Source: Balneola sp. (GTDB taxonomy: Bacteria; Bacteroidota; Rhodothermia; Balneolales; Balneolaceae). From it: a DNA stretch of 64,000 bases. The position numbers and the translations under genes are program-made. Position 1 is the first letter of the stretch. Every line of letters starts with the position of its first letter. The stretch lies in the NCBI GenBank assembly GCA_003712055.1, contig RHLJ01000004.1, forward strand, positions 372,001 to 436,000, in the 5' to 3' direction. The notes below the pieces were generated by a model that saw nothing but the letters and a program-made list of their open reading frames with translations, had not been told where the DNA came from and did no database searches. Positions 92-11,839 of the stretch are shown here, one piece after another.

Positions 92-121
92 TTGTAAAAT
101 TCACAAACAAAGTTATCTTTG
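92..121 (+). promoter_or_regulatory. Bacteroidota-type promoter of the sensor kinase gene
   Basis: A TTG at 92-94 is followed after 19 bases by TATCTTTG at 114-121, which fits the Bacteroidota sigma-ABfr pattern (TTG, about 19-21 bases, TAnnTTTG). Transcription would begin around 127-130, so the TTG at 119 could not be the start codon of the kinase. This favours the in-frame TTG at 149. The rest of bases 1-91 shows no gene. Confidence 0.5.
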
Positions 122-148
122 ATCACAAATAAGGCTTATACAAGTATC

Positions 149-3040
149 TTGGTACAGAAAAAATTAGGGATCTTACTATTGTTTTTTTGCCTGAGTATTT
201 CATACTCAGCTAATGCTCAATACAATAAAAAAATCTTTACCGATGAGGATGGGTTGCCTGGTCTGGCAGCATATGATATCCTTCAAACAGAGGATGGATA
301 CCTATGGTTTGCTACCACAAATGGATTAGCTCGTTTCGATGGGGTCGATGTAACCGTTTACAATAAGGATAATACCGAAGCACTCAATTCCAGTGTTATT
401 CGAAAGCTTTATTTGGGGGATGACGGAACTCTTTGGATTGGAACATCAGGTGGAGGGGTGACTACCTACAAAGACAGAGAGTTTTCACGTCCTTTTGGAA
501 AATTAGGAGGCATCGATCAGTACATTGTTTCGTTTGCTGAAACATCGGATGGAGCATTTTGGGTTGGTACTGACGGAAGAGGATTATATAAAATAGTAGG
601 AGATTCAATTCGGCAGTTTACTGCTGAAAATTCAGAGCTATCTCAAAACCACATTTTTTCTTTATCTCCATACAAAGGAGACACTCTTGTAGTAGGTTTT
701 ATCGATTATGGGTTGCGCTATTTTAAAGACGATCGATTTATTGACTTTCCGCTTCCAAAAGAACTTGAAACTCCGGTTATATACAGCATTATCAATGAAT
801 CAGATTCTTTGTTTATTGGTAGCCGGTCAGGGGTATTTGTAATGTACGAAGGTGAGTACAAGCATTATCCGCTTACCGATCAGGGAGCGAATACCAGCTT
901 TGTGTTAGATCTTGCAAAAGATGGAAGCGCATTATGGGTTTCGACCTCAGAAGGTGTTCACCGATTAGATTTGATAACAGGAGAACTGGACAAAAATCTT
1001 GGATTGGAAAGCAAAGGCTCGTTAGCAGCACTAAAAGATAAAGAGGGTCATATCTGGATATTTAGCTATTTAGAAGGAGCCTACAGAATAAAAGAAACAA
1101 CCTTTAGTTCTTTTGGAAATGCAACCGCAGGAGCAATGGTAGAATCTACCCCCGGAACTTTTTGGGTAGTCTTAGATAGCAGGTTGACAAAAATTGAGGG
1201 TAATGATACGACTGTATTCGGTGCAAAAGACGGATTAATGACGGACTTAGCTGAAGCTATGATAGCAGATTCGCAAGGGCGGATTTTTGTGTCTAACAGT
1301 GCAGAAGAAGTAGGAATCGATGTAATCGATGGAAGAAGTATAAGGCCACTATCCGAGTTCAATTCTACCTTTGATTCGGAGGTAAACACTTTTTATGAAG
1401 ATGTAAATGGTCAGCTATGGGTAGGCCTTCAGGCAGGAATTGTAAAGTGGACGGGAAGAAATTCTTTGCATTATGATGACGCAGAAATGTCGAAAGGAGG
1501 GGTGCTTTCAATTACCAATGATAAATCTGAGGCTTTGTGGGTCGGGACTAATTATGGCCTCAATAAGCTGGTTGCCGATACTGTTCAATCTCAATATATC
1601 GAAGGTTCAGGTCTGTCTAATCCCATTATTAGTGCTCTTTATAATGACGAAGAAGATCGGCTTTGGATAGGTACATCCGGTGGTGGCTTAAATGTGAAAA
1701 TTGAGGAGAAATTCATACCTATTAAAACCAACCAGCTTCCTGCTGAAACTATAGGAGATATCATTGAGGATCATAATGGTTTCTTATGGATTTCTACCAG
1801 CAATGGAATTTACTATGTAGAAAAACAGCAGCTTCTTGAACATATCTCGGATACTACTAAACAGGTGTCTTACCGAAAGTTTACAACAGATGATGGTCTT
1901 CCTTCTAATACTATCATAGATGGATTAGTAACTAGTACCAATGAAATTTGGTTTTCTACCGGAGCAGGAATAGGGAAAGTAAACCCGGATAGAATCCTTA
2001 CCAATAGTAGTCCTCCACCTATTCTCATAGAAGAGATTCAGGTAGACAACGAAGAGGCACCCATTTTATCCATTATTGATATACCTCATGATAATAAGTC
2101 GATAGCCATCTATTATACTTCACCGAGTTTTATCGATTCTGAAGAGATAACCTTTCAATATAAACTGGAGCCCTTTCAAACAGAATGGGAAGAAGTTGGT
2201 ACAAGACGGGCGGCGTTTTATACCAATATTTCACCAGGAAATTATAGTTTTCATGTTCGGTCTATAACCAAAGACGGGATTATCAGTTCAGAAGCAGCGA
2301 CTCTATCTTTAAACTTCGAGTATGCCTATTACGAGACCTGGTGGTTCCGGATTTTAATAGTCGTTGTTTTGGTGAGTATTAGTGTTGGTTTTTACCAATA
2401 CCGAATGGCAAATGTGAAAAGAATGGAGCGTGTTCGGTTACAAATAGCGGGTGATCTCCATGATGAGATAGGAAGCAATTTGGGAAGTGTAATTCTCAAG
2501 AGTCAACTTCTTGAAAAGAAACTGGACTCATCGGATGAGGCAGTAACAATCGGGTTAGAGGAAATTCGATCCATCAGTAAGAACACTTCCCAGGCAATGC
2601 GCGATATCGTTTGGATGATTAATCCCAAGCATGATGTGGTGGAAGATTTGGTGCTCCAACTCAAGGAAATATCAGGAGCCATGCTTGAAAACATTAATTA
2701 TACCTTTGAATCGAATGTGGAATTCAGCGAGGAGGGGATGAATCCCGAAATACGACGAAATACGGTGCTGATTCTCAAAGAGTGTATCCATAATATCATA
2801 AAGCACTCTGAGGCTTCAGAAGTAGATATTTCATTTAAAAAAGCAGAGAATGAATTTACCCTCAGGGTTTTGGATGATGGTAAAGGCTTTGCTGTCAATG
2901 CTTTGGAAGGGAATAAGCATTACGGTCTGGAAGGAATGAAAAACAGAGCCAGAGAAATCAGAGGCTCGCTAAGCATAGATTCAGATTCTGAATCCGGAAC
3001 GGCGATATCGTTGTCATTTAAAAACTACGGGGGTACGTAG
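149..3040 (+). CDS. Two-component sensor histidine kinase with periplasmic beta-propeller and Y_Y_Y domains
   Basis: This is a membrane sensor kinase that probably phosphorylates the response regulator 34 bases downstream. An N-terminal signal segment (LGILLLFFCLSIS) is followed by many Reg_prop propeller repeats (LWxGTxxGGL type) over roughly residues 30-640, a Y_Y_Y domain, one membrane helix (WWFRILIVVVLVSISVGF), then a HisKA_3-type dimerisation domain with phospho-acceptor His in GDLHDEIG. The HATPase_c domain has HNIIKHS (N box), DDGKGF and GLEGMKNR. No REC or AraC domain is fused, unlike Bacteroides hybrid systems; the layout is closer to NarX/DegS-type kinases. The open frame extends to a TTG at 119, but a TAnnTTTG box overlaps that codon, so the TTG at 149 (VQKKLGILLL follows) is preferred. 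No in-frame ATG precedes the signal segment. The ligand is unknown. The stop codon lies inside a dyad shared with the region before the giant gene. Confidence 0.9.
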   Translation: MVQKKLGILLLFFCLSISYSANAQYNKKIFTDEDGLPGLAAYDILQTEDGYLWFATTNGLARFDGVDVTVYNKDNTEALNSSVIRKLYLGDDGTLWIGTSGGGVTTYKDREFSRPFGKLGGIDQYIVSFAETSDGAFWVGTDGRGLYKIVGDSIRQFTAENSELSQNHIFSLSPYKGDTLVVGFIDYGLRYFKDDRFIDFPLPKELETPVIYSIINESDSLFIGSRSGVFVMYEGEYKHYPLTDQGANTSFVLDLAKDGSALWVSTSEGVHRLDLITGELDKNLGLESKGSLAALKDKEGHIWIFSYLEGAYRIKETTFSSFGNATAGAMVESTPGTFWVVLDSRLTKIEGNDTTVFGAKDGLMTDLAEAMIADSQGRIFVSNSAEEVGIDVIDGRSIRPLSEFNSTFDSEVNTFYEDVNGQLWVGLQAGIVKWTGRNSLHYDDAEMSKGGVLSITNDKSEALWVGTNYGLNKLVADTVQSQYIEGSGLSNPIISALYNDEEDRLWIGTSGGGLNVKIEEKFIPIKTNQLPAETIGDIIEDHNGFLWISTSNGIYYVEKQQLLEHISDTTKQVSYRKFTTDDGLPSNTIIDGLVTSTNEIWFSTGAGIGKVNPDRILTNSSPPPILIEEIQVDNEEAPILSIIDIPHDNKSIAIYYTSPSFIDSEEITFQYKLEPFQTEWEEVGTRRAAFYTNISPGNYSFHVRSITKDGIISSEAATLSLNFEYAYYETWWFRILIVVVLVSISVGFYQYRMANVKRMERVRLQIAGDLHDEIGSNLGSVILKSQLLEKKLDSSDEAVTIGLEEIRSISKNTSQAMRDIVWMINPKHDVVEDLVLQLKEISGAMLENINYTFESNVEFSEEGMNPEIRRNTVLILKECIHNIIKHSEASEVDISFKKAENEFTLRVLDDGKGFAVNALEGNKHYGLEGMKNRAREIRGSLSIDSDSESGTAISLSFKNYGGT

Positions 3041-3042
3041 GT
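3020..3042 (+). promoter_or_regulatory. Candidate response-regulator binding dyad, copy 1
   Basis: TAAAAACTACG, six bases, then CGTAGGT. The inner inverted repeat is CTACG-N6-CGTAG. It overlaps the kinase stop codon and ends about 33 bases before the response regulator start. The same outer sequence recurs at 3776-3798. NarL/LuxR-type regulators often bind short inverted repeats like this; binding here is inferred. Confidence 0.45.
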
Positions 3043-3074
3043 GTTATGACTATAAAGGAAGTTTATCCTTAGTC

Positions 3075-3764
3075 ATGATTTTGAATAATGTCACACAGAT
3101 TTTAAATACCTATCCAATGCCAGAAAAAACGATTATTGATATTTGGCTAATAGAGGACAATGAAGTCTATCGTGAATCTATTTCTGATCTCGTAAATGAA
3201 TTGGATCAGGTTCAATGTTCAAGAAGGTTTACGACGGTAGAAGAAGCTATTTACGAACTAGATGCTTCTGAACCACCAAATCTAATCTTTTGCGATATCG
3301 GTTTGCCTGGAATGAGCGGTATCGAAGGAGTTCAGAAGTTTGGAGAACTTATTCCGGAAGTACCTGTTGTTATGATCACAAACTTTGATGGAGATCAACA
3401 AATTTTTGATGCTATTTGCGCCGGCGCGATTGGATATTTATTGAAAACAGCTTCTAATAAAGAGATTCAGGATGCCGTATTTGAAGCCGTGAATGGTGGC
3501 TCTCCCATCAATCCGAAGATTGCTCATAAAATCCTGAAGATGTTCAATAAATATACTCCAAAGAAGCAGGACTACAATCTGAGCAAAAGAGAGAAGGAGA
3601 TACTAGGCTTAGTTGTTAACGGGAAAACCTATGAAGCCATTGGTGAAGTGCTATTCATCAGCTACCATACAGTGGATTATCACATCCGGAATATTTACAA
3701 GAAACTTCAGGTTCACTCGAGAACGGATGCCGTTGCAAAAGCACTGAAAGAACAGCTTATCTAG
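3075..3764 (+). CDS. LuxR/NarL-family response regulator
   Basis: Residues about 20-135 form a receiver domain: acidic pocket EDN at 27-29, phospho-acceptor Asp74 in FCDIGLPGMSG, and the conserved Lys124 in LLKT. Residues about 165-229 form a GerE/LuxR helix-turn-helix (LSKREKEILGLVVNGKTYEAI, then HTVDYHIRNIYKKL). It is the likely partner of the HisKA_3 kinase just upstream. ATG at 3075 is used here; a second in-frame ATG at 3117 (MPEKTIIDIW) would give a more typical length and is a real alternative. A dyad lies before this gene and again between it and the giant secreted-protein gene, which suggests autoregulation and control of that gene (inference). Confidence 0.92.
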   Translation: MILNNVTQILNTYPMPEKTIIDIWLIEDNEVYRESISDLVNELDQVQCSRRFTTVEEAIYELDASEPPNLIFCDIGLPGMSGIEGVQKFGELIPEVPVVMITNFDGDQQIFDAICAGAIGYLLKTASNKEIQDAVFEAVNGGSPINPKIAHKILKMFNKYTPKKQDYNLSKREKEILGLVVNGKTYEAIGEVLFISYHTVDYHIRNIYKKLQVHSRTDAVAKALKEQLI

Positions 3765-3775
3765 CCATTTTTCTA

Positions 3776-3798
3776 TAAAAACTACGAACTCTCGTAGG
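3776..3798 (+). promoter_or_regulatory. Candidate response-regulator binding dyad, copy 2
   Basis: TAAAAACTACG, six bases, then CGTAGGT, matching copy 1 at 3020-3042 at every base outside the central six. It lies just after the response regulator stop and about 74 bases before the giant gene start. In this copy the arms (CTACGA/TCGTAG) could also form a 6-bp hairpin with a 4-base loop, but no T-run follows, so a terminator is unlikely. Confidence 0.45.
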
Positions 3799-3871
3799 TT
3801 CCAACCCGCCCTTCCTTTTATAGTTTGAAGGCAATCACCTTTAAACTCTTCAAAACTATATCGGGTAGAAA

Positions 3872-6800
3872 ATGAAAAGTCCAGGCTTTATAGGGGTATG
3901 TATTTTAATCTTCTCCATATTACCAAAACAGGGTTTTAGTCAAGTAGATCCAAGTATTAGTAATGAACCTCCAACAGAAAGTAGTGTATCACTTACTCTA
4001 ACTATTGGAGATAACTCCGATTATGGATACAACTTCGATATATATAGGGACGGGTCAATCATATACAGTGATCCTGGTTCATTCGCGACTTCTATAGATT
4101 TTGAAGATACGTCATTAGATCCAGGTACTACATATGATTACTACGGGGTGGTAACACTACTCGACTCATTTGGGGGAGATTCTACCTCGCAAACTTCTAC
4201 CACTATTCAGGTTACTACACTTCCCAAGCCATCCGTAGTATCGAATGTACAGGTAGACAGTTCAACCTATGGGCAAATAACCGTCATATGGGATCAGAAC
4301 TCGGAAAGTGATTTTATGTTCTATAATGTATACCGGGAAACTAGTTCCACATCATCTCCAGGTAATGTGCTTACTACTATTAACCTTAATACAACTACCA
4401 GCTATATAGATAATTCTGTAGCCGACGGAACGACCTACTTTTACTATGTAACGGTAGTAAATAATGATGGTGTTGAGGGCGATATTTCTAATGAGGCATC
4501 CACGACTTCTTTATATGGACTGAATTATATAACCAACTCAAGCAGCAGTTTTGCGGGGCTGTGGAGTCCTCTCACTCCAATCGATTACGACAATGATGGC
4601 GATCTGGATCTTTTTTATACCGGGATTCCCTCATCAGGAACTATCGCGTCCAAGCTTTATGATAATGACGGGAGTGGGACTTTTACTGAGAATACCAATC
4701 ACGGGTTGCCCGCTATACACAGCTACGTTAGCCAATATTTTGTGTGGGGGGATTACGACAACGATGGAGATCTTGACATAATTTTAGCCGGAGACAACAA
4801 TAGTGTTGCTACGGGAACTCGCCAAATACACTCCTATACGAACAATGGCGATGGAACCTTCTCTGCAAAAACTAATTTGGCTCTCATACCGGCCTGGTAC
4901 CCTGCTATGGATTTCGGGGATTACGATAACGACGGAGATTTAGACCTATTCGTAACCGGACAAACAGGTTCAGGGGTTTTGCAAGCTACCTTATATGATA
5001 ATGACGGAGACGGGAATTTTAGTGTGGGCTCACAATCATTTACAGGTGTAGAAACCGGTGCCGTTGAATGGGTAGATTATGATAATGATGGTGATCTGGA
5101 CTTGACCTATTTCGGAAACGATATAACCACCGGTAGCGCTGGAAGCTTCTTTTACATCAACAATGGAGATGGAACCTTTACGGAAGAAACGGTAAACAGC
5201 CCATTAAAGGAATTGCGGTTATCCGCCATAAGTTGGGCAGATTTCAACAATGATGGTTTTTACGATGTGTTTATCTCCGGTTTTCATGATGGAAACTCAC
5301 CGTCTCGGGTAAACCAGCTGTATAAAAATAATGGAGATGGAACCTTTAGCCTTTTTGCCGATGCTGTTTCCGGAATCGTAAATCAGACTACCATAAGTTG
5401 GGGAGATTATGATACCGATGGGGATTTGGATCTGCTGATAAGCGGCTACGATCAGATTGCAACAACCTATTCCGCCAAATTATTTGAAAACTCAGGAAGC
5501 AGCGGAGGTTATACCTTCTCTGAGAGTACTACGCTGCCGGGAGTTGAGGCCTATTCTAGTGCCTGGATTGATTTAGATGGCGATACGGATTTAGATGCGG
5601 TTTTCGCGATTTCTGATGGGGTAAATCCCTTTGAAATCCACCTATTTGAGAATCATTTAAATAAGACTTCAACTACTGCTGCACCTACCAATCTTAGTTG
5701 GACAGAGACGGCGGATTCTGTCACCTTTAGTTGGGATGCAGTAGCCGATCCTGATGGAGGGCCTGTTAGCTATAATCTGTATCTAACGGAAGAAAATCTC
5801 GCCAACAGAGAAGGGGTTCCGTCTCATTCCAATAATACCACTGGGGCAAGACGGCTATTCGAGCACGGGAATATGGGACTGAATACCAGTTTCACAATCA
5901 GTAAAGACAGTCTTCAAACAGCAATATATGAATGGGGGGTACAATCTGTAGATGCCACCTGGCAAGGCAGCAGTTTTACAACAGGAAGCGATTATTCTAT
6001 TACAGTAGCCAAACCGGCTAATCTTTCAGCTTTATTTACTTCTTCGTTAAACAAGGTAGACCTAAGCTGGGATGCCAATACAGAACCGGGAGTTCAGTAT
6101 GAGGTATACCGTATCGATGAGACAAATGCGACTACAACGAAAATCAGTACCACCAGCAGTACGTCATTGAGTGATTATCCTCCCGCTCCCAATAATTACA
6201 CTTACTTTTTAAAAGCAGTAGTAGCTGTTGGGATTGAAAGTGTTACTTCAGACAGTGCCATCGTTGCAGCTTATCCGGATGCTACCACCCCGAGTGCATT
6301 AGATACAACCAGTACAAGCATCAGTCAGGTTGTGCTGGAATGGAGCCAGACAGGAAACGAGCCAGCCACAGGGGAAAACTACTCCTTCGACTTAGACAAG
6401 TTTGAAGTATACCGGGATAGCGGAGCTATTGGCACGGGAACAATGTTACTAGCCAACCCCACAAGTCCTTCTTATACCGATAATTCTGTGACAGCGGGTG
6501 CGACCTACTATTACTATGTTAGGGCGCTAGAGCCAGTTACTCCTGATACGTCTGGTTTCAGTGATACATTGGTGGTTACGCTATCCTTGCCTGCCGCACC
6601 TACAGCACCAACCAATCTTGTAGCATCTAAAAACCTTTACAATAATGTCACACTAAGTTGGGATGCCTCAACAAGTGAAGCTAATATCGAATACGATGTA
6701 TATAGAACGGATGCAGGGCTTATTGGAACTACGTCAAACACCAGTTTTGCAGATGGCACGGTAGCTTCAAATACTGCCTATGAGTATTCTGTAAAGGCTA

Positions 6801-9800
6801 AAGATGAGTTCAATCAGGAAAGTGCGAGTAGCAATACCGTTAATGTAACCACTCCCTCATTTATTATTGCAGATGGCAGCATAAGCGGGTTAACCGCAGC
6901 CTATGGCTCAGATGCCGAAACCGCAGATTTCGATGGTGACGGAGACTTAGATATTGTGCTCGCGGGGTATAATAATGGCACAGTTGGTGGAGTATATTTG
7001 AACGATGGAACAGGAGCATTTGCTACCCCCATTGCCTTACCAACTTTTTATTGGGATGATAACTCAAGATTTGATCCAGCCGATTATGATGGCGACGGTG
7101 ATATTGATCTTGCCAGTACATATCGAAATTCTGGTGATGGGTCGAAAAGTGTATTCATATTAAATAATAATGGTTCAGGAAGCTTTAGTTATTCAGGAAT
7201 AGGGTTTACCGAATTTAATACTGGAGATCCTTCCTGGGGTGATGTAGACAATGATGGAGATTTGGATTTGTTTATACCAGCTACAGAATCCAAACTATAT
7301 ATCAATAGTAACGGAACGTTTATAGATTCAGGTCAAAGTTTTAATTCTGCTTCCGATACTAAAGCACATTGGGCGGACTATAATAACGACGGTTACCAGG
7401 ATTTACTTTTAGTAGGAGGTACGTCTTTAAGCACGCTCTTATATGTTAACGACGGTAACGGGAATTTAAGCAACTCGGGTGAATCTATTGTTAGCTCCGG
7501 ATTCAGGGCTACCTGGAGAGATATTAATAACGACGGGTATCTGGACTTCGCGATTTCTACCATAAGTAGTGGAATTTTTATTTATGAAAATGACGGATCA
7601 GGCAATTTTACCGGATCTCAGCTGACAACATCGGCAACCTTAAATAATGCGGAAATAAGTTTCGAAGATTTCGATCACGATGGTGATGCTGACGCGTTCG
7701 TATTTGGATTAGTAGGAAGTGGAACGAGCGCGGTATATGAAAGTTATTATTTCGAGAATAATGGGGATGGAACATTTGCAGAATCCGAGTTAACCGCACC
7801 AGTAATTAACTTTGGAGCAACCATTCTTCTAAAGGGTGACTTCGATAATGACGGAGACCTGGATTTTGGCCTAACTGGTGTATTTTTCAATTATTCGACA
7901 TTCGCGTTTACATACACAGCCAAAAAGTATATAAACAATGTTTCTAATGATCTCACCAATACGAACCCAAGCGCTCCATCAAATTTAACTACATCATTGA
8001 ATGGCACAGAACGCACCTTAAGCTGGAATGAAAGTACGGATGCAGAAGGGGCTATTAGCAGCTATAATGTATTTATACAAGAGACTAGCAGTTCTGTAAT
8101 GCAAACACCAGCAAATAGTGATACCACTACGGGGTATCGAATGAGGGGAGAACCCGGAAATACAGGGTTAAATACCTCCTACATCATTGATGAAAATCTA
8201 TTGCCTTCCGGCACTTATTCCTGGGGAGTACAGGCACTGGATGGTTCCTATTTAGGAAGTGCTTTTACAAAAGGAACTAGTTTCACAGTCACCAATCCGG
8301 CTCCGGCAACTCCATCCGGGCTTACGGCTTCAAATATTGGATATACCACCGTGGATTTGAGTTGGAATGACATTAATGAAAGTGATGCATTCTATAACGT
8401 ATATCGCGAAACAGCCAGTACAGGTTCACCATCCAATTTGATCGCCACAACCACCGATACAACCTGGGCAGATTCCAGTCTCGCTGATGGTACTACGTTT
8501 TATTACTACATTCAGGCAGAAGATAAAGCCGGTCAGCTAAGTTCAGTTTCCTCAGAATTGTCAGTCGAAACCATTCTGCAAATATTCGCTGATTTAGGAA
8601 ACGCGGGAATACCTGCATTTATATATAGCGCAAAATCAGCATGGGGAGACTATGACAACGATGGGGATTTGGATCTTGCAATCACAGGTCATTTGAGTAA
8701 TATTAGTATCGCTAAGATTTACAAAAATCAGGGAAATGGCGTTTTCTCAGATTCAGGAATAAACCTGACCGGCGTAACTAGTGGGGAGATCAGTTGGGTG
8801 GATGTCGATAATGATGGAGACCTCGATCTATTTTTAAATGGAGACGGAACTGCCACCACCGCCTTATTATATAGAAATGATGGCGGAGATACATTTACCG
8901 AAATTAATACATCCATTGAAAAACTCACCAATAACACTGTCGAGTGGGCTGATTACAACAATGATGGGTATATAGATTTGTTGCTATACGGAGAGGGATT
9001 GGATGATAGCGGTGATATTAGCATGGCTACCATGTCTACTAGTATTTATTCTAATAATGGAGATGGAACCTTTCAGGTCGAATCTATTAATCTTCAAGAG
9101 GTTACTAATGGGTGTGCTCGTTGGTTGGATGTAGATTCCGATCATGATCTGGATATCATTCTATCTAGTGATGAAGGAGGGAAAATTTATGAAAACGATG
9201 GATTCGGAAGTTTTAACGAATCGGGAAAAAGTTTCCCAAGTTTGGACGAATGTACTTTGGATATTGCGGATTATGATCAGGATGGAGATATAGATGTATT
9301 AATTGCAGGTGAAAATAATATATCAAACCGACATGAAGCCAGCATCTACGTAAACGATGGAACCGGTAGTTTTAGTGACTCTGGAGTTAGTTTAGAGGGG
9401 GTTAACATGGGTAAGTGGGTAGATTTTGATAACGATGGAGATTTGGATGTCTTGTTATCGGGTCTTAATAATAGTAACACAAGAGCCACAAAAACCTATC
9501 TGAACGACGGAAATGGAAACTTCTCAGACGAACCAAACTTAGTTACCAATATAGATAATCTGGTACTACAGGATTTAGAAGTTGCTGATTTTGACAATGA
9601 CGGAGATTTGGACGCGTTTCTTCTGGGTTATTCCGAAAATAAATTTTTGGAAAATGTGTTATCGGAAAGCAATACAGCGCCCTCAATTCCAGCAAACCTT
9701 AGTGCCTCGGCCAATAGCCAGGATGTAATTATTAACTGGGATGCTTCCACCGATCCGGAGGGCTCCCCGGTTAGTTACAATGTATTTATTACAGAAGTAG

Positions 9801-11839
9801 ATTCCATCAATGCAATCGTTTCGGCTGCAAGCGATACGTCGAATGGATTTTACAGGCTCAATCAATTAGGAAATGCCGGAATAGCCAATACTTTCACAAT
9901 AAACCGTTCCAACGACTGGGAATTTCCACTTATTATCGGTGTTCAGGCCATCGATGCTTCCCAGCTGGCAAGTGATTTTACCTACATTTTGTACTATGGC
10001 TGGGATTTCATTCAAGCCAACAGCATGGAGATAATGGCTTATGATGACCTTATCTACACATTCGATATTAACGCACTACAGTTAATAAGCGGCTACTCTG
10101 ATAGTACATTTGAGGTTAGCCAGTCAGGATCACTGTCAGGAATATTTTTCAAAGATGTGAACAACAACCGAGCTTTTGATGGTTCATCCGATGTTATAGT
10201 TCAGAACGTTTCGAATATTACATTTTCACCTTCCAGTGGAGATACACTCCGGTATTTTTCATATGACCCTCGCATTGAATCTGCCTCATTAATATTCTCT
10301 ACTGCTCAGTATACCGATAGCCTCGAAATAGACATCAGAGCTGTAAAGGGTAATCCACAAATAGAAGGTAATAGTAATGAGAGTGGTTGGTATCTATTAT
10401 CTAATCCATTTACAACCACCATAGGTGAATTACTGGAGAACGTATGGACACAAGGAGCCATCAATTCGGATGCTCCTGATGGGGCATCAACCCTATATAT
10501 CTTCAATCAGGATAGTTCCATATATGAAGCAGTTACTACCGATCTGGATACCACCAAGTTGGCTGCAGGTCAGGGGTTGCTTGTATATCTATTTGAGGAT
10601 GACGATCTGGGAGATGGTGAAGGTGATATTGACGGAGGCTGGCCCAAAACACTATCCAATTACGGAGATCCATTCGGAGAGCAAGTCAGTGTAGAGATCA
10701 AGAATGTAGATCACGACGGATTTGCCGGAACTTCGGGAAGTGAAGGTTTTGCACTTATGGGGAACCCATATGGGTGGCACATTTCCGCAGATTCGGTTAT
10801 AGCTACGCTAAAACGGGAAGATCCATTCGCAAACAGCTATATCTATCGCTGGGATGCAGTTTCGAAGTTGTTCTATTTAACAACTTCAGGATCAATAGCT
10901 CCTTATGAGTCATTTTTCATAAGAACCATTACTTCAGGAACTATTGCTACTCTAACCTTGGATTATAGTGATCATGTGGAAGTGATAGATGAAGCTGATG
11001 AAGAAGGAGAAGAAGGCGGAGGTGCAGAAAAAGCAATTTCTGAGAAGAAACCGGTGATAGTATCTTTTAACCTTGGTTCTGAAGAGCACGAAACTACTTC
11101 GAGTTTTTACTTAAGGTTTGATGATGATGCTAATTCAAGTATCGATATAGATCCATTTGACGGATATTATCTTGGCTCATATGCATCTCAATATGCCAAC
11201 CTATATACCAAAATTGGGGATCAGGCTCTAAGTATAAATAATCTTCCAATTGGCTTAGATGAGCACTCCGAGTTCCCTCTATATATCGACGCTACATTAT
11301 CCGGGCCGTTTACACTAAACTGGGATGCTGGAAGATTTCCTGAAGATTGGAAATTCAGTTTAGAAGAATTAGCTACCGGAAGGGTGATAGATCTTATTGA
11401 AGAGTCAGGTTATAGTTTCGAAGCTACTCATAAATCTAAGTATGATAGTTCACTCAATCCAATGGTATTAGATAACACCCAGTCAAAACAGGAAGTAGCA
11501 AATACTCCGGTATTCATGCTAAGAATAGTCCCAGCAAATCTTGTCGGTACAGAAAACGGGTTTGGAATACCATTAGTGGTAGAGTTAGAACAGAACTACC
11601 CAAACCCATTCAACCCTAGTTCTGTGATCCGTTTTGGAGTACCCACAACCAGCGAAGTTAAACTAGAAGTATTCGATGTGCTCGGGAGAAGGGTAGCCAC
11701 TCTGGTTAATGGCGAAACCAAACAGCCGGGTAGATATAATATTCAATTTAACGCTCGTGATTTGTCCTCAGGGATGTACATCTATCGTCTCGTAATTGGT
11801 GATAAAGTGCTCACTAAAAAAATGACCCTTATTAAATAA
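3872..11839 (+). CDS. Giant secreted protein: three 7-bladed FG-GAP/VCBS propellers, fibronectin type III modules and T9SS sorting domain
   Basis: 2655 residues. Residues 1-23 are a signal peptide. Fibronectin type III-like modules (PxxVSNVQV...ITVIWD, NVYRET) alternate with three blocks rich in calcium-binding DxDxDGDxD motifs: about residues 215-595, 1000-1360 and 1570-1930. I count seven such motifs in each block, which fits three seven-bladed integrin-alpha-like propellers. Each block is followed by a longer Fn3-type module with the recurring words SYN-[LV]-[YF], TxGxR and GLNTS. Residues about 2040-2560 are a less repetitive beta-rich region with an acidic Glu/Gly stretch (EADEEGEEGG). 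Residues about 2570-2655 are a type A T9SS sorting domain (YPNPFNP, VFDVLGRRVATL, KMTLIK) that would direct export and surface anchoring. No catalytic motif was recognised; adhesion or matrix binding is a guess. It lies downstream of the two-component pair and upstream of the PID-CTERM gene. Confidence 0.93.
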   Translation: MKSPGFIGVCILIFSILPKQGFSQVDPSISNEPPTESSVSLTLTIGDNSDYGYNFDIYRDGSIIYSDPGSFATSIDFEDTSLDPGTTYDYYGVVTLLDSFGGDSTSQTSTTIQVTTLPKPSVVSNVQVDSSTYGQITVIWDQNSESDFMFYNVYRETSSTSSPGNVLTTINLNTTTSYIDNSVADGTTYFYYVTVVNNDGVEGDISNEASTTSLYGLNYITNSSSSFAGLWSPLTPIDYDNDGDLDLFYTGIPSSGTIASKLYDNDGSGTFTENTNHGLPAIHSYVSQYFVWGDYDNDGDLDIILAGDNNSVATGTRQIHSYTNNGDGTFSAKTNLALIPAWYPAMDFGDYDNDGDLDLFVTGQTGSGVLQATLYDNDGDGNFSVGSQSFTGVETGAVEWVDYDNDGDLDLTYFGNDITTGSAGSFFYINNGDGTFTEETVNSPLKELRLSAISWADFNNDGFYDVFISGFHDGNSPSRVNQLYKNNGDGTFSLFADAVSGIVNQTTISWGDYDTDGDLDLLISGYDQIATTYSAKLFENSGSSGGYTFSESTTLPGVEAYSSAWIDLDGDTDLDAVFAISDGVNPFEIHLFENHLNKTSTTAAPTNLSWTETADSVTFSWDAVADPDGGPVSYNLYLTEENLANREGVPSHSNNTTGARRLFEHGNMGLNTSFTISKDSLQTAIYEWGVQSVDATWQGSSFTTGSDYSITVAKPANLSALFTSSLNKVDLSWDANTEPGVQYEVYRIDETNATTTKISTTSSTSLSDYPPAPNNYTYFLKAVVAVGIESVTSDSAIVAAYPDATTPSALDTTSTSISQVVLEWSQTGNEPATGENYSFDLDKFEVYRDSGAIGTGTMLLANPTSPSYTDNSVTAGATYYYYVRALEPVTPDTSGFSDTLVVTLSLPAAPTAPTNLVASKNLYNNVTLSWDASTSEANIEYDVYRTDAGLIGTTSNTSFADGTVASNTAYEYSVKAKDEFNQESASSNTVNVTTPSFIIADGSISGLTAAYGSDAETADFDGDGDLDIVLAGYNNGTVGGVYLNDGTGAFATPIALPTFYWDDNSRFDPADYDGDGDIDLASTYRNSGDGSKSVFILNNNGSGSFSYSGIGFTEFNTGDPSWGDVDNDGDLDLFIPATESKLYINSNGTFIDSGQSFNSASDTKAHWADYNNDGYQDLLLVGGTSLSTLLYVNDGNGNLSNSGESIVSSGFRATWRDINNDGYLDFAISTISSGIFIYENDGSGNFTGSQLTTSATLNNAEISFEDFDHDGDADAFVFGLVGSGTSAVYESYYFENNGDGTFAESELTAPVINFGATILLKGDFDNDGDLDFGLTGVFFNYSTFAFTYTAKKYINNVSNDLTNTNPSAPSNLTTSLNGTERTLSWNESTDAEGAISSYNVFIQETSSSVMQTPANSDTTTGYRMRGEPGNTGLNTSYIIDENLLPSGTYSWGVQALDGSYLGSAFTKGTSFTVTNPAPATPSGLTASNIGYTTVDLSWNDINESDAFYNVYRETASTGSPSNLIATTTDTTWADSSLADGTTFYYYIQAEDKAGQLSSVSSELSVETILQIFADLGNAGIPAFIYSAKSAWGDYDNDGDLDLAITGHLSNISIAKIYKNQGNGVFSDSGINLTGVTSGEISWVDVDNDGDLDLFLNGDGTATTALLYRNDGGDTFTEINTSIEKLTNNTVEWADYNNDGYIDLLLYGEGLDDSGDISMATMSTSIYSNNGDGTFQVESINLQEVTNGCARWLDVDSDHDLDIILSSDEGGKIYENDGFGSFNESGKSFPSLDECTLDIADYDQDGDIDVLIAGENNISNRHEASIYVNDGTGSFSDSGVSLEGVNMGKWVDFDNDGDLDVLLSGLNNSNTRATKTYLNDGNGNFSDEPNLVTNIDNLVLQDLEVADFDNDGDLDAFLLGYSENKFLENVLSESNTAPSIPANLSASANSQDVIINWDASTDPEGSPVSYNVFITEVDSINAIVSAASDTSNGFYRLNQLGNAGIANTFTINRSNDWEFPLIIGVQAIDASQLASDFTYILYYGWDFIQANSMEIMAYDDLIYTFDINALQLISGYSDSTFEVSQSGSLSGIFFKDVNNNRAFDGSSDVIVQNVSNITFSPSSGDTLRYFSYDPRIESASLIFSTAQYTDSLEIDIRAVKGNPQIEGNSNESGWYLLSNPFTTTIGELLENVWTQGAINSDAPDGASTLYIFNQDSSIYEAVTTDLDTTKLAAGQGLLVYLFEDDDLGDGEGDIDGGWPKTLSNYGDPFGEQVSVEIKNVDHDGFAGTSGSEGFALMGNPYGWHISADSVIATLKREDPFANSYIYRWDAVSKLFYLTTSGSIAPYESFFIRTITSGTIATLTLDYSDHVEVIDEADEEGEEGGGAEKAISEKKPVIVSFNLGSEEHETTSSFYLRFDDDANSSIDIDPFDGYYLGSYASQYANLYTKIGDQALSINNLPIGLDEHSEFPLYIDATLSGPFTLNWDAGRFPEDWKFSLEELATGRVIDLIEESGYSFEATHKSKYDSSLNPMVLDNTQSKQEVANTPVFMLRIVPANLVGTENGFGIPLVVELEQNYPNPFNPSSVIRFGVPTTSEVKLEVFDVLGRRVATLVNGETKQPGRYNIQFNARDLSSGMYIYRLVIGDKVLTKKMTLIK
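4510..5660 (+). repeat. Propeller block 1 of the giant protein (7 FG-GAP/VCBS units)
   Basis: Seven units carry DxDxDGDxD-like loops: DYDNDGDLD (four times), DFNNDGFYD, DYDTDGDLD and DLDGDTDLD. They are followed by Gly/Ser loops and NNGDGTF strand signatures. The unit count suits a closed seven-bladed beta-propeller. Confidence 0.75.
6859..7950 (+). repeat. Propeller block 2 of the giant protein (7 FG-GAP/VCBS units)
   Basis: Seven units: DFDGDGDLD, DYDGDGDID, DVDNDGDLD, DYNNDGYQD, DINNDGYLD, DFDHDGDAD and DFDNDGDLD. The spacing is about 45-60 residues, as in block 1. Confidence 0.75.
8582..9660 (+). repeat. Propeller block 3 of the giant protein (7 FG-GAP/VCBS units)
   Basis: Seven units: DYDNDGDLD, DVDNDGDLD, DYNNDGYID, DVDSDHDLD, DYDQDGDID, DFDNDGDLD and DFDNDGDLD. 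The Fn3 module ahead of this block (FYNVYRETASTGSPSN) closely resembles the one ahead of block 1 (FYNVYRETSSTSSPGN), which suggests internal duplication. Confidence 0.75.

Follow-up and report, generated by a model that had tools for sequence, protein, structure and literature searches.

Inverted repeats flanking a LuxR-type response regulator gene of Balneola as putative NarL-type operators of the regulator and an adjacent giant secreted protein

NarL-family operators and the Balneola locus

The 7-2-7 operators of NarL in E. coli have been described at napF, yeaR, and frdA, with their geometry and an example site (PMC4549865). The positions given in that work place the dyad centres at -44.5 for napF and -42.5 for yeaR. 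Herein, we analysed a 64,000-nt window of the genome of Balneola sp. in which a dyad of similar build is repeated on both sides of the gene for a LuxR-type response regulator (RR). Written as CTACGnn-nn-nnCGTAG, this dyad consists of two inverted heptamers with a 2-bp spacer, as in the NarL operators, and its centre is placed near -43.5. The likeness extends to relatives of the RR with T189/K192, whose palindrome AATACC-N8-GGTATT equals TACCNNN-N2-NNNGGTA with flanking AA/TT. The locus differs from the NarL systems in its half-site, which is CTACG with extra AA/TT ends and not NarL's own TACC (where NarL has V189, the RR has Y), in its Bacteroidota-type -7 box, and in that the sites flank the RR's own gene.

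In the RR, Response_reg and GerE both scored above the Pfam cut-off, and the chain matched VraR, DevR, and NarL; a receiver domain followed by a GerE/LuxR helix-turn-helix (HTH) assigns it to the NarL/FixJ family. This domain order is shared with RRs of the VraR/LiaR/DevR type, of which VraR is the closest solved full-length relative, whereas the propeller (Reg_prop/Y_Y_Y) sensor kinase and the giant T9SS-secreted neighbour set the present system apart from them. The adjoining kinase gene encodes HisKA_3 and HATPase_c domains. A propeller/Y_Y_Y sensor and control of adjacent genes are also known from hybrid two-component systems (HTCS), whose output domain is of the AraC type. In HTCS, a single protein combines the sensor, kinase, and receiver with the DNA-binding domain; in the present locus, two separate ORFs encode the kinase and the regulator, the kinase is devoid of a receiver or HTH, and the output domain is LuxR-type, not AraC-type. 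What the locus has in common with the HTCS of Bacteroides (PMC11253607) is the propeller/Y_Y_Y-type sensor and the control of adjacent genes, which is here a prediction. The first-pass annotation had read the three genes from the letters as encoding a propeller kinase, a receiver-LuxR regulator, and a giant secreted protein, and this domain reading was borne out by Pfam (Table 1).

NarL-family operators are already known, but the specificity, layout, and covariation reported below appear undescribed: a literature search, which extended to few subscription papers, returned no description of RR-flanking operators with helix covariation. The present reading links an uncharacterised pair of sensor and regulator with a single giant T9SS-secreted protein, and supplies a putative operator that is directly testable. 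RR-flanking operators together with helix covariation would offer a route to the DNA specificity and targets of many Bacteroidota LuxR-type regulators, and, if the proposal is true, operator and adjacent target would be predictable from sequence alone for many uncharacterised systems.

Table 1. Features of the locus, with positions in the window (G040, G045, and G048 are Balneolota genomes of another family)
Feature	Position	Strand	Description	Evidence
Histidine kinase	119-3040	+	Reg_prop propeller, Y_Y_Y, HisKA_3, HATPase_c	ORF; Pfam
Dyad 1	3019-3042		20-bp putative operator AACTACG-N6-CGTAGGT at 3023-3042	exact match; place conserved in G040, G045, G048
-7-like box 1	3064-3071	+	weak box TATCCTTA, 31 bp past dyad 1 centre; predicted start near 3076	family-wide peak at +30/31
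RR	3075-3764	+	LuxR/NarL-family response regulator	ORF; Pfam Response_reg + GerE
Recognition helix	3660-3698	+	SYHTVDYHIRNIY of the RR	alignments; covariation
Dyad 2	3776-3799		20-bp putative operator AACTACG-N6-CGTAGGT at 3780-3799	exact match; place conserved in G040, G045, G048
-7-like box 2	3821-3828	+	box TAGTTTGA, 31 bp past dyad 2 centre; predicted start near 3833	family-wide peak at +30/31
Predicted target	3872-11839	+	2655-aa protein, FG-GAP repeats, fn3, T9SS sorting tail	ORF; Pfam

Sequence, place, and conservation of the two dyads

The first-pass annotation had reported a repeated 24-base dyad around the RR gene. The 24-mer TAAAAACTACG-N6-CGTAGGT was found as two exact matches in the window, identical at all 18 fixed positions as had been claimed; the coordinates first given were off by one and spanned 23 bases. 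Dyad 1 lies before the RR gene and, as noted earlier of one copy, falls in coding sequence: it spans the end of the kinase gene, overlapping the last codons (C-terminus ..SFKNYGGT) and the stop codon. Dyad 2 begins 12 bp beyond the stop codon of the RR; from the centre of dyad 2 to the ATG of the 2655-codon ORF the distance is 82 bp. When up to 3 mismatches were allowed, shuffles led to an expectation of 0.05 matches in the window; 3 were found, one of them being copy 1 in reverse.

Across all 3,634,728 bp of the genome, the core CTACG-N6-CGTAG has exactly two occurrences, both beside the RR gene. The chance of two random sites falling within ~760 bp is near 4e-4 by an arithmetic estimate. The form AACTACG-N6-CGTAGTT had 8 genome sites with up to 2 mismatches; the one-mismatch sites numbered 3, namely both dyads, whose right arms end in GT and not TT, and one site inside a reading frame. 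Whether such sites cluster before T9SS genes, as in a wide regulon, had been named as a check. A wide regulon of this kind was rejected, since the genome scan gave strict sites at these two places only and the next best site lay within a coding frame; a broader regulon marked by the CTACG dyad is not supported. No dyad was found upstream of the kinase gene.

The nearest RRs, at ~50% identity, belong to three Balneolota genomes of another family (G040, G045, and G048), in all of which the gene order is ~975-aa propeller kinase, dyad, RR, dyad. The form common to these orthologous loci is AACTACG-N6-CGTAGTT, and the best single genome-wide match in each genome is an RR-flanking copy. Conservation in related genomes, named at the outset as a check on the motif, holds on both sides of the RR gene. 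Given that the kinase frame of G045 stops before the first dyad, coding constraint does not explain the dyad there. The giant gene, which had been put forward as the target, is absent downstream of dyad 2 in all three genomes; at the three nearest orthologous loci, the giant-protein target is not conserved with the RR.

In G040 and G048, dyad 2 is followed by a short conserved ORF, of 79 aa in one genome and present as a counterpart in the other. This ORF (MKHLNQYSLF...) lies at L048 12470-12709 and L047 5276-5515, on the minus strand in both, with its start ~89 bp past the centre of the downstream dyad by our own count, and more CTACG-like half-sites were seen between dyad and ORF. The only gene downstream in G045 is a convergent hemN-like one, beyond terminator-like sequence. 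Here (L049 12501-12700), the downstream dyad and a -7-like box are followed by a terminator-like hairpin within ~150 nt, and no convincing gene was seen between dyad and hairpin; this dyad may serve the expression of a small RNA or peptide, or may be a vestige.

An RR profile search of the genome contigs returned, beyond the three orthologues, mainly distant matches. Across the phylum, the perfect palindrome had 5 matches in 394 genomes, 2 of them at RR orthologues, indicating that the exact word belongs to the RR clade of the window.

Palindromes, promoters, and recognition helices across the family

Other RR loci carry different palindromes at the same two places. Palindromes of 20 bp (two 7-bp arms around a 6-bp spacer, with A/T ends and C6/G15) were scored in a sample of 148 distinct related RR loci without regard to which bases stood at positions 3-5 and 7. 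A score of at least 9.5 was reached in 19 of 147 upstream flanks, where dinucleotide shuffles predicted 1.0, and in 26 of 148 downstream flanks (0.4 expected), compared with 1 of 148 inside the RR gene (0.7 expected). Since the score was designed after examples had been seen, 60 fresh loci provide the cleaner test; these gave 8 sites upstream (0.4 expected), 7 downstream (0.2), and 3 inside the gene (0.3) relative to plain shuffles. Within one locus, the upstream and downstream copies were more alike than copies taken across loci. A site scoring at least 9 was lacking in roughly half of the RR loci.

With the dyad centre as the common reference point, a TAnnTT(T) box was found to start at +30/31, at upstream and downstream sites alike (z ~12), and no other offset was comparable; the fresh loci gave a z of 6.3 at +30. 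The -7 boxes of the window are imperfect. Of 45 strong sites, 30 have a G immediately following the right-hand TT, and for this reason the right arm probably overlaps the -33 TTG element of the promoter. Taken together with the Flavobacterium sigma-A box TAnnTTTG at -12 to -5 (PMC9723704), the box at +30/31 puts the dyad centre at about -43.5. The fixed distance between operator and -7 box, as looked for in an activator site near -41 to -45 of a sigma-A promoter, was thus present family-wide.

The distance from the downstream dyad to the next start codon is 67-100 bp in most loci with a co-directional neighbour, the 82 bp of the window included, whereas that to the RR stop ranges between 11 and 139 bp; the downstream dyad therefore looks like a part of the next gene's promoter. 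The next genes encode, among others, FG-GAP, LamG/T9SS, BNR/T9SS, Calx-beta, and AtuA proteins, as well as a ~460-aa group with no Pfam or NCBIfam match. Two genomes of the window's genus are without this RR but have a paralogous module of kinase, RR, dyad, and FG-GAP/T9SS gene, so systems of this kind are paired with a secreted FG-GAP protein more than once. The dyads of these modules (L279 10249-13596 and L280 4590-7908) are of the AATACCGG type. As a separate observation, RRs with the helix SIDTVRAHIRNIY (L036, L042, L182, L190, and L202) often have a next gene of ~430-466 codons, frequently cut by the end of the locus, that is preceded by a AATCACAT-type dyad; these genes had no Pfam match, and five had no NCBIfam match either.

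Residues 188, 189, and 192 of NarL contact bases. In matches to 1je8 and 1a04, these positions align with D201, Y202, and R205 of the RR, respectively. Mutual information linked residue 189 with half-site positions 3-4 (z 6.9 and 6.4), residue 192 with positions 4-5 (z 9.3 and 7.1), and residue 188 with position 7 (z 5.5); two earlier helix positions were also high (z 8.2 each), which is expected because clades differ at several residues. An aromatic residue 189 went with C3 in 15 of 16 distinct helices against 2 of 20 for the others, and K192 with AC at 4-5 in 11 of 16 cases against 0 of 23; D188 went with G7 in 30 of 34 half-sites, all under a rule derived from the same data set. The two exceptions for residue 189 (L070 and L066) are accounted for by residue 192, and the RR of the window (D, Y, R) is consistent with its site CTACG. 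In the fresh loci, the base at position 3 was predicted correctly for 46 of 58 half-sites (label permutation p 0.0002), comprising 38 of 40 for known helices and 8 of 18 for unseen ones. A complete residue-to-base code was rejected: it fails on unseen helices and, at position 7, in part of the R188/Y189 group. The covariation rests on few independent evolutionary changes, the tree having only about four aromatic/non-aromatic changes at 189, too few for an independence test. We regard it as evenly poised whether RR genes in the propeller-kinase two-component systems of Balneolota and Bacteroidota commonly have 7-2-7 operators of their own RR on either side, with a half-site readable from three helix residues (188, D with G7 and R mostly with A7; 189, aromatic with C3 and small with T3; 192, K with AC at 4-5 and R with xA).

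Proposed mechanism and alternative explanations

It is quite probable, in our judgement, that the two dyads are NarL-type 7-2-7 operators of the adjacent RR and that the RR activates itself and the giant T9SS/FG-GAP gene. The phosphorylated RR would bind each dyad as a dimer centred ~43-44 bp upstream of a sigma-A-type start, its right arm over the -33 region. It would activate, rather than repress, its own gene, by way of a promoter within the kinase gene's 3' end, and from dyad 2 the giant gene; the phosphorylation dependence and the signal of the RR are parts of this model that we infer. That the CTACG inverted repeat is a putative LuxR/NarL-type operator, as first surmised, is in keeping with orthologue conservation, enrichment, helix covariation, and the -7 box. 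The accompanying idea that kinase and regulator control the giant gene and themselves is supported for the giant gene, by the -7-like box and the distance to its start, and for the RR, and is not supported for the kinase, before whose gene no site was found. Predicted control by the RR of itself and of the giant T9SS/FG-GAP protein is well supported by computation.

The dyads might instead bind the RR and serve the RR alone, whether by feedback, by looping of the DNA between the two ends of the 700-bp gene, or by blocking read-through, with the giant gene as a bystander. Such an arrangement would suit G045, which keeps dyad 2 with no convincing same-strand gene downstream, and also G040 and G048, where no giant gene follows; however, it is unlikely, given that the distance of dyad 2 is kept to the next start codon and not to the RR stop, that a -7 box follows dyad 2, and that the conserved small ORF lies downstream at ~89 bp in G040 and G048. 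Assigning the sites to another regulator of the locus is quite improbable, because the half-site changes with the recognition helix of the adjacent RR itself and the dyad occurs only on either side of that RR gene.

The palindromes could also be RNA hairpins, either minus-strand intrinsic terminators or mRNA-stabilising stems around the RR message, and both copies do fit a minus-strand terminator (a stem and then T5; 2 against 0.8 in shuffles). This was rejected as highly improbable on three grounds: no minus-strand gene of the ORF list ends at the dyads, relatives often lose the T-run and keep the palindrome, and the imperfect pairs have no G-U bias (12 G-T, 9 A-C, and 49 other). Hairpins would, moreover, leave the helix covariation and the -7 box unexplained. 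A mere chance repeat is hardly credible at all; although the genomes of some relatives have roughly one chance occurrence of the bare core, in most cases away from such an RR, the conservation in another family, the enrichment, and the genome uniqueness all speak against it.

As for the RR gene itself, its start at 3075 may be too early, with homologues aligning from residue 15-21. Were Met15 (3117) the start, the leader downstream of the predicted transcription start would be ~41 nt long.
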